A stretch of 64,000 nt of DNA from Paenibacillus terrigena DSM 21567 (GTDB lineage: Bacteria; Bacillota; Bacilli; Paenibacillales; Paenibacillaceae). The translations under genes and the position numbers were made by a program. This document shows, piece after piece, positions 40,480 through 42,116 of this stretch. The notes below the pieces were generated by a model, which was not told the origin of the DNA, did not search any database, and saw nothing but the letters and a program-made list of their open reading frames with translations. Every line of letters starts with the position of its first letter. The stretch's first letter is position 1. The stretch covers positions 62,001 to 126,000 of the forward strand of contig NZ_KB895414.1 of the NCBI RefSeq assembly GCF_000374845.1, written 5' to 3'.

Positions 40480-41907
40480 TTAAGCTTGACCAATAATGTT
40501 TCTTGCAATCCACACGCCTGCTGCGCCTGCTTGCGCTAGCCCGCGTGTAATACCCGCACCGTCTCCACCGCAATACAAGCCAGGGATTTCTGTCTCGAAG
40601 GACTCCGACAGCTTTGGACGTGCTGAGTAGAATTTCGCTTCAACACCGTAGAACAAAGTGTGCTCGGAAGCAAGACCCGGTGTTACTTTATCGAGTGCCT
40701 CGACCATTTCGATCAAGCTCTTCATCGTATTATACGGAAGTACAAGCCCAAGATCTCCTGGTACAGCTTCACGAAGTGTCGGTTCTAAGAAGCCTTCACG
40801 AATCCGATTCTCTGTCGAACGTCTGCCGCGTAGAATATCGCCATATTTCTGAACAATGACACCGCCGCTTGATAGATCGTTCGCCCGTTTACAAATCTCA
40901 CGTGCATACTCATTCGGTTTATCGAATGGATCTGTGAAACGATGCGACACCAGCAACGCGAAATTCGTATTCGCAGATCCAAGGGCTGGATCCTTGAAGG
41001 AGTGACCATTCGCCGCCATAACACCGCTGTGATTCTCAACTACAACGTGACCAGATGGATTGGAGCAGAACGTTCTTACACGTGTACCTACCGATGTGTT
41101 GTAGATGAATTTCCCTTCGTACAAATGCTCATTAATTTCACGCATGACAACATCGGACGTCTCTACGCGCACACCGACATCGACTTGGTTATTGAACATT
41201 TTGATCTTGCGCTTCTTGAGCACTTCAGTTAACCATGCGGAACCGTCACGACCTGGCACGATAACAACATGATCTGCTTGATACTCCGTTCCGTTCTTCA
41301 GCACAACACCGCGAACCTGCTTCGTTTCTTTATCTGTAATAATGTCATCGACTTCGGTCTTGTACATCATGTCAATCTTGTCTTTCAAATATTCAAAGAT
41401 CGACTTCAGAATCTCAAGGTTCTGCTCCGTCCCCAAATGTCTTACTTGTGCCCGCAATAGCTTCAGTCCTGCAGCATATCCGCGCTGCTCAATATCGCGA
41501 ACGATCTCCGTTGTCGGATCCGTAATGGACTCTGTTGCCCCGTGATCGAGGTTGATCTGGTCCACATATTTAATCAAATTTAATACTTTAGATGGGCTTA
41601 AGTAATCAGTCATCCAACCGCCGAACTCCGTCGTTACGTTGAATTTACCGTCACTATACGCACCCGCACCGCCAAAACCGCTCGTGATCGAGCAAGCTGG
41701 CAAGCATCCTGCGAAATCCTTCTTCCCCGCTGGTGGCGGGCATAGTTGGATTTTCTCCTCCAGAATCGGGCAGCGCCGACGATAAATATCATGACCTTTA
41801 TCGATTAATAATACGCGAAGCTGTGGCGCCTTCAGTGATAATTCATAACATGTAAAAATTCCTGCTGGCCCTGCTCCTACGACAATTACATCATATTGAT
41901 TACTCAT
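40480..41907 (-). CDS. FAD-dependent dehydrogenase (COG2509-like)
   Basis: A 475-residue flavoprotein. The N-terminal Rossmann motif is VVGAGPAGIFTCYEL, with the acidic end of strand 2 at LLIDKG; GGAGAYSDGKFNV follows, and the C-terminal FAD block is GLYCGGDGAGITRGLAQAGAAG. Cysteines at CPILEEKIQLCPPPAGKKDF and GCLPACS may bind a metal or cluster. The reaction is unknown. It is read from a leader carrying a purine-type riboswitch, so it is probably linked to purine status. AGGAGG precedes the ATG. Single-gene unit. Confidence 0.88.
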   Translation of the reverse strand: MSNQYDVIVVGAGPAGIFTCYELSLKAPQLRVLLIDKGHDIYRRRCPILEEKIQLCPPPAGKKDFAGCLPACSITSGFGGAGAYSDGKFNVTTEFGGWMTDYLSPSKVLNLIKYVDQINLDHGATESITDPTTEIVRDIEQRGYAAGLKLLRAQVRHLGTEQNLEILKSIFEYLKDKIDMMYKTEVDDIITDKETKQVRGVVLKNGTEYQADHVVIVPGRDGSAWLTEVLKKRKIKMFNNQVDVGVRVETSDVVMREINEHLYEGKFIYNTSVGTRVRTFCSNPSGHVVVENHSGVMAANGHSFKDPALGSANTNFALLVSHRFTDPFDKPNEYAREICKRANDLSSGGVIVQKYGDILRGRRSTENRIREGFLEPTLREAVPGDLGLVLPYNTMKSLIEMVEALDKVTPGLASEHTLFYGVEAKFYSARPKLSESFETEIPGLYCGGDGAGITRGLAQAGAAGVWIARNIIGQA

Positions 41908-41951
41908 GTCATCCTCCTAAAGTACATGTTGTCTTAGCTTGGGAACAACAC

Positions 41952-42003
41952 AAAAAACCTGTCCAACGAATGAGGTACGACAAACGCCCCATTCGTAGAC
42001 AGG
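41952..42003 (-). terminator. Regulated terminator of the purine riboswitch
   Basis: On the minus strand CCTGTC-TACGAATG pairs with CATTCGT-TG-GACAGG, followed by TTTTTT. The 5' arm contains the 3' halves of aptamer stems P3 and P1, so the terminator and the folded aptamer exclude each other. Confidence 0.85.
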
Positions 42004-42057
42004 AATTTACGGCTCCTTGTAGAGACCCTCAGTCCATATCACTGAGGATATACGAAT
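41991..42057 (-). ncRNA. Purine riboswitch aptamer, guanine-type with altered junction (ON layout)
   Basis: Three-way junction on the minus strand. P1 is ATTCGTA/TACGAAT, P2 is CCTCAGT/ACTGAGG with loop GATATGG, P3 is AGGAG/TTCCT with loop CCGTAAA. The loop pair and the J2/3 core (GTCTCTACA) are those of purine aptamers. J3/1 is G-U-C, so the specificity base (C74 in xpt numbering) is C, as in guanine riboswitches, but the neighbouring A73 is U, J1/2 is UAU rather than UAA, and the base after UAC in J2/3 is A rather than C. Because P1 and P3 block the terminator, ligand should raise expression. Ligand identity is open: guanine, or a relative such as xanthine or 2'-deoxyguanosine. Confidence 0.9.
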
Positions 42058-42087
42058 TGAATCAAATTTATTCATGCTGATATGGAT

Positions 42088-42116
42088 ATCGTAACGGACA
42101 ACAACGAATATGTCAA
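42088..42116 (-). promoter_or_regulatory. Promoter of the riboswitch-FAD oxidoreductase transcript
   Basis: On the minus strand TTGACA (42116-42111), exactly 17 bases and TACGAT (42093-42088). Transcription would start about 25 bases before the aptamer. The stretch from here to coaA (42117-42321) has a CCCTTG/CAAGGG hairpin near 42226-42242 and a TATGAT at 42267 for coaA. Confidence 0.8.

Follow-up and report, generated by a model that had tools for sequence, protein, structure and literature searches.

Guanine-I riboswitches of the xpt type (RF00167) combine a P1-P2-P3 aptamer with pairing bases in L2 and L3 and with U22, U47, U51 and C74, and they are usually OFF switches. The adenine pbuE switch, marked by U74, has an ON layout. 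ON switches on the same scaffold also occur in Firmicutes among variants with changed ligand contacts and other genes, namely xanthine-II, 2'-dG-III and the 8-oxoguanine class, the last of which precedes an 8-oxoguanine deaminase gene. The xanthine-II and guanine-II variants of Paenibacillus are described as predicted ON switches (PMC9295807), and the 8-oxoguanine class is reported to have mutations at key bases (PMC11625349).

The window analyzed here is a 64,000-nt stretch of Paenibacillus terrigena DSM 21567 (GCF_000374845.1, NZ_KB895414.1, positions 62,001-126,000). The first-pass annotation had placed on its minus strand a purine aptamer with C at the specificity position, and both elements were confirmed: RF00167 matched 42075-41976 (-) with 73.0 bits against a gathering score of 37 (E 5.1e-11), and C74 was read directly (numbering follows the B. 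subtilis xpt aptamer). The parts of the locus are collected in Table 1. In the scan alone the promoter-like site was not above chance expectation; its location and spacing suit the aptamer. Elsewhere the window contains a 6S RNA (RF00013, 79.5 bits; 20062-19882, minus strand).

Table 1 Features of the riboswitch locus in the window
Feature	Position	Strand	Basis or detail
Promoter-like site TTGACA-17-TACGAT	42088..42116	-	10/12 matches, spacer 17
Purine aptamer P1-P2-P3	41991..42057	-	RF00167 match, base-by-base reading, pairs checked
P1	42057-42051/41997-41991	-	AUUCGUA/UACGAAU
P2	42047-42041/42033-42027	-	CCUCAGU/ACUGAGG
P3	42017-42013/42005-42001	-	AGGAG/UUCCU around L3
Key aptamer bases	U24 = 42048, A54 = 42018, G72 = 42000, U73 = 41999, C74 = 41998	-	xpt numbering
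Intrinsic terminator	41952..42003	-	folding energy against shuffles; covariation with position 73 in homologues
Terminator 3' arm	41972-41958	-	
U-tract (U6)	41957-41952	-	
Ribosome-binding site AGGAGG	41913..41918	-	sequence
FAD-dependent protein gene	40480..41907	-	475 aa, ATG start; PF21688, PF07992, 3NLC match

Read by hand, J1/2 of this aptamer is U22 A23 U24. J2/3 consists of eight bases, G46 U47 C48 U49 C50 U51 A52 C53, followed by A54, and G72 U73 C74 follow P3. The loops are GAUAUGG (L2) and CCGUAAA (L3), with the kissing pairs G37-C61 and G38-C60 present, and the guanine-I ligand contacts U22, U47, U51 and C74 are all in place. The RNA therefore shares with guanine-I its three helices, loop pairing and contact bases; it differs in the ON layout of its terminator, in the FAD gene that it precedes, and in U24, A54.G72 and U73, all of which vary among homologues. 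Adenine ON switches of the pbuE type, including one in the same genome (L001), have a closely related core and a terminator that likewise overlaps P1 and P3. The adenine-class mark U74 is not present, however, and C74 in its place argues for guanine-type pairing. Guanine-II riboswitches, compared here by their published description (PMC9295807), resemble the window RNA in C74, U51, ON layout and occurrence in Paenibacillus, but have junction insertions (J2-3 and J3-1) and phosphoribosyltransferase genes, whereas the window RNA carries no clear insertions. The xanthine-II marks, U51G and a two-base J2-3 insertion, are absent (the window has U51 and an eight-base J2/3), as are those of 2'-dG-III, a C73 that pairs with the ligand and a nucleoside hydrolase gene (the window has U73 and the FAD gene). 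Judged by the description of the 8-oxoguanine class, the RNA appears to differ from it in its unchanged contacts and in its gene.

The terminator had been described as drawing its 5' arm from the 3' strands of P3 and P1, and our reading agrees, with J3/1 (C74 included) forming the part of the arm between the two strands. The predicted stability of the terminator was -25.5 kcal/mol; shuffles of only the portion downstream of P1 averaged -10.7 (sd 2.4), and none of the 2000 was as stable. Because the arm is built from aptamer strands, a folded aptamer is predicted to exclude the terminator, giving the ON layout that had been proposed; a terminator unable to coexist with P1 and P3 is also the feature of the pbuE-like platform. 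The best fold of the leader reached -28.2 with the aptamer enforced and -42.6 when folded freely, with the terminator formed. The unit is kept in homologues. A T-run follows the aptamer in 109 of 110 distinct homologous aptamers, and a hairpin running through position 73 folds in 91. In 86 sequences position 73 faced its terminator-arm partner as G-C (38), A-U (33), U-A (1), G-U (10) or a mismatch (4). The Watson-Crick count, 72 of 86, compares with 38.5 when the arms were redealt, a comparison that ignores kinship. Most simply, base 73 would serve both J3/1 and the terminator stem. Sequence and homologues establish the aptamer, the terminator, their predicted mutual exclusion and the conservation of the unit. 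Among FAD orthologues from another family, L223 has a differently built terminator that should again exclude the aptamer, since the 5' strand of P3 and L3 (GGCUCCCG) pair with CGGGAGCC ahead of a U6 tract. Two others, L218 and L222, are without a terminator; their aptamers lie near the start codon, where translational control is possible, and the fold is not decisive.

That the switch stands before the FAD gene was amply confirmed. An aptamer was found upstream in 90/90 Paenibacillaceae genomes with close orthologues and in 80/80 loci from named genomes, 74 by pattern and 6 more by Rfam; the two samples partly overlap. The named loci span Paenibacillus, Brevibacillus, Cohnella, Ammoniphilus, Fontibacillus, Caldalkalibacillus mannanilyticus and others. 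For the FAD protein itself, 141 of 250 family genomes gave a match with E <= 0.001; the count takes in distant relatives, and most matches are at least 81% identical. Wider sampling across the class showed the aptamer with orthologues of at least 86% identity, and those tested at 79% or less were without it; the exception is family f36 (L218, L222 and L223), which has it. No match was found in the plasmids and viral contigs searched. We detected no gene neighbors conserved across the 80 named loci, nor across 20 loci from relatives that lack the riboswitch; synteny alone therefore does not explain why switch and gene occur together. Literature searches, incomplete in coverage, returned no prior report of a purine riboswitch associated with this gene.

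We favor, with a probability of roughly 0.77, the reading that the window carries a guanine-type (C74) purine riboswitch on a transcriptional ON platform that drives the FAD protein gene. When the ligand is absent, the 3' strands of P3 and P1 together with J3/1, including C74, would pair with the downstream arm to form the intrinsic terminator, and transcription would halt ahead of the FAD gene. Binding of guanine (or of hypoxanthine, which guanine-I aptamers also accept) during transcription would hold P1 and P3, so that no terminator would form and the FAD protein would be made. Read-through would need both the stabilization of the aptamer by ligand and the order of transcription, because the free terminator fold is the more stable. 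We infer from the contact bases that the ligand is guanine, and from the layout that the polarity in the cell is ON. Three points count against this reading: an ON switch for guanine is atypical for guanine-I, L218 and L222 are without a terminator, and the function of the FAD enzyme offers no independent pointer to guanine.

The first-pass annotation had taken three junction differences from xpt as marks of a variant ligand class. Two of them, U24 and U73, are as described; the third, given as A at the last base of J2/3, is in fact position 54; in xpt this base and G72 form the pair at the base of P3, and in the window RNA they form an A.G mismatch within P3. A further difference, C48 where xpt has U48, was not on that list. 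Across 110 distinct FAD-gene aptamers U22, U47, U51, A52, C53 and C74 were invariant, partly by construction because the search pattern was fixed at U47 and U49-C50 and admitted either U or G at position 51; positions left free in the pattern, 22 (U/C) and 74 (C/U), showed no variation. The three junction positions do vary among orthologues of the same gene: position 24 is U in 95, A in 14 and G in 1, position 54 is A in 78, C in 24, U in 6 and G in 2, and position 73 is G in 63, A in 42 and U in 5. Co-occurrence of the three changes upstream of homologous genes, which that annotation had proposed to look for, was seen in only three distinct sequences (L005, L007 and L103), and the normal guanine set, A24, C54-G72 and A73, which that annotation had named as evidence against its own view, is present in L094. 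Neither U24 nor U73 is confined to this group: among the family's OFF guanine aptamers, U24 is found in 9 of 27 before purE, and U73 in 3 permease-gene aptamers (G in 21 and A in 4; 2 of these 28 may be mis-parsed). The xpt aptamer with A24U has a solved hypoxanthine complex, and A24U alone keeps ligand binding (PMC6649850). Because OFF guanine aptamers carry the same bases, U24, A54 and U73 are best read as ordinary variation; and because the changes are not fixed while the ligand contacts are, we dropped the variant ligand as the leading view. As an alternative to the guanine switch, an aptamer of altered specificity would respond to 8-oxoguanine, xanthine, urate or another guanine-like base and turn on an enzyme for that compound. 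This would suit a FAD gene that is not a usual guanine-riboswitch target, the occurrence of such variants as ON switches in Paenibacillus (PMC9295807), the prevalence of U24, a base seldom seen in most of the family's OFF guanine aptamers, and the same junction in the amidohydrolase aptamers described below. Yet every contact base belongs to the guanine set without exception, the junction is not fixed, and known variants have changed contacts or insertions, such as U51G in xanthine-II. These comparisons do not support an altered ligand, which we consider unlikely. Six FAD-gene aptamers that are not among the 110 (L177, L181, L187, L191, L196 and L200, from Paenibacillus chondroitinus, P. ferrarius and relatives) carry G53 instead of C; the change should break the G46-C53 pair beside the ligand pocket, making them better candidates for true pocket variants than the window RNA.

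In the same genome, an adenosine deaminase gene is preceded by an adenine-type (U74) aptamer (L001), and purE and an NCS2 permease gene follow C74 aptamers; we assign these gene names from our own reading of the protein sequences. A tree built from 175 aptamer cores of the family (61 columns) grouped the FAD-gene aptamers with the adenine U74 ON aptamers and with C74 ON aptamers of NCS2 permease and amidohydrolase genes, with a support of 0.896, and placed the OFF aptamers of purE, xpt and permease genes apart from this group. The grouping reflects either shared descent or a shared terminator constraint, which 61 columns cannot separate. The permease members, L290, L304 and L311, have a C74 aptamer with an ON terminator, unlike the OFF switches that usually control this gene, and come from genomes without the FAD orthologue. 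The amidohydrolase members (L300, L303 and L329-L339) likewise combine C74 with an ON terminator, precede a gene fitting the NCBIfam 5'-deoxyadenosine deaminase model, and have the same junction bases as the FAD-gene group. In addition, a xanthine-II-like RNA (L324; G51, long J3/1) precedes an allantoinase-like gene. Conceivably, though with low odds, the C74 ON aptamers of all three genes in Paenibacillaceae and Brevibacillus share a single lineage with ties to the adenine ON switches and sense, by means of bases flanking the pocket at positions 24, 54 and 73, a purine that is not guanine; in that case the FAD protein would be a new enzyme acting on the sensed purine.

Much less probable is a guanine-II riboswitch, ON and highly selective for guanine in Paenibacillus, in which A54 and G72 would be one-base junction insertions. 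Guanine-II is described as predicted ON (PMC9295807), with U22, U51 and C74 kept and one base inserted in J2-3, and A54.G72 is unpaired in the window aptamer. However, C54 restores a normal P3 foot with G72 in 24 of the 110 homologues, A54/G72 or G54/G72 is also found in OFF permease aptamers, and the local xanthine-II-like RNA, with U51G, has a J3/1 several bases longer. It is highly improbable that the RNA is an OFF switch, as is usual for guanine-I, or a degenerate aptamer that regulates nothing: downstream of the aptamer, no terminator was found other than the one formed with P3 and P1 strands, the unit is conserved and the terminator covaries.

The identification of the downstream gene as encoding a FAD-dependent protein was upheld. 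The protein matches PF21688 and PF07992, carries the FAD-depend_C domain and is related to VP0956 (3NLC, E 2e-22), which is called uncharacterized; COG2509 is the label given to it in the first-pass annotation. No function was found for the family, in which 3NLC is the one solved relative. All 13 orthologues compared share Cys 46, 56, 68 and 72, which may form a metal or redox site. A structure prediction from 13 close sequences had a mean pLDDT of 41 and was left unused. A guanine deaminase is encoded in the same genome, as is a protein of the xanthine dehydrogenase type; across genomes, the molybdenum xanthine dehydrogenase domain occurred in 18 of 27 with the FAD gene and 22 of 34 without it, indicating no link.

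Taken together, these results suggest that the window holds a genuine riboswitch from a known family, guanine-type, ON and strongly conserved, in which a conventional aptamer is put to an uncommon and instructive use. The new and useful part is the widespread link of a purine ON switch with an uncharacterized FAD protein. Because the switch accompanies every close orthologue sampled and no neighbors are conserved, the FAD gene itself would answer to a purine, and the link provides a direct handle on the substrate of the protein. The ON polarity hints that the protein might help the cell to respond when purines are in surplus. The adenine-type and guanine-type ON switches, which occur naturally with closely related cores, are material for studying the specificity change at position 74, and position 73 provides a case of a junction base tied to the expression platform.
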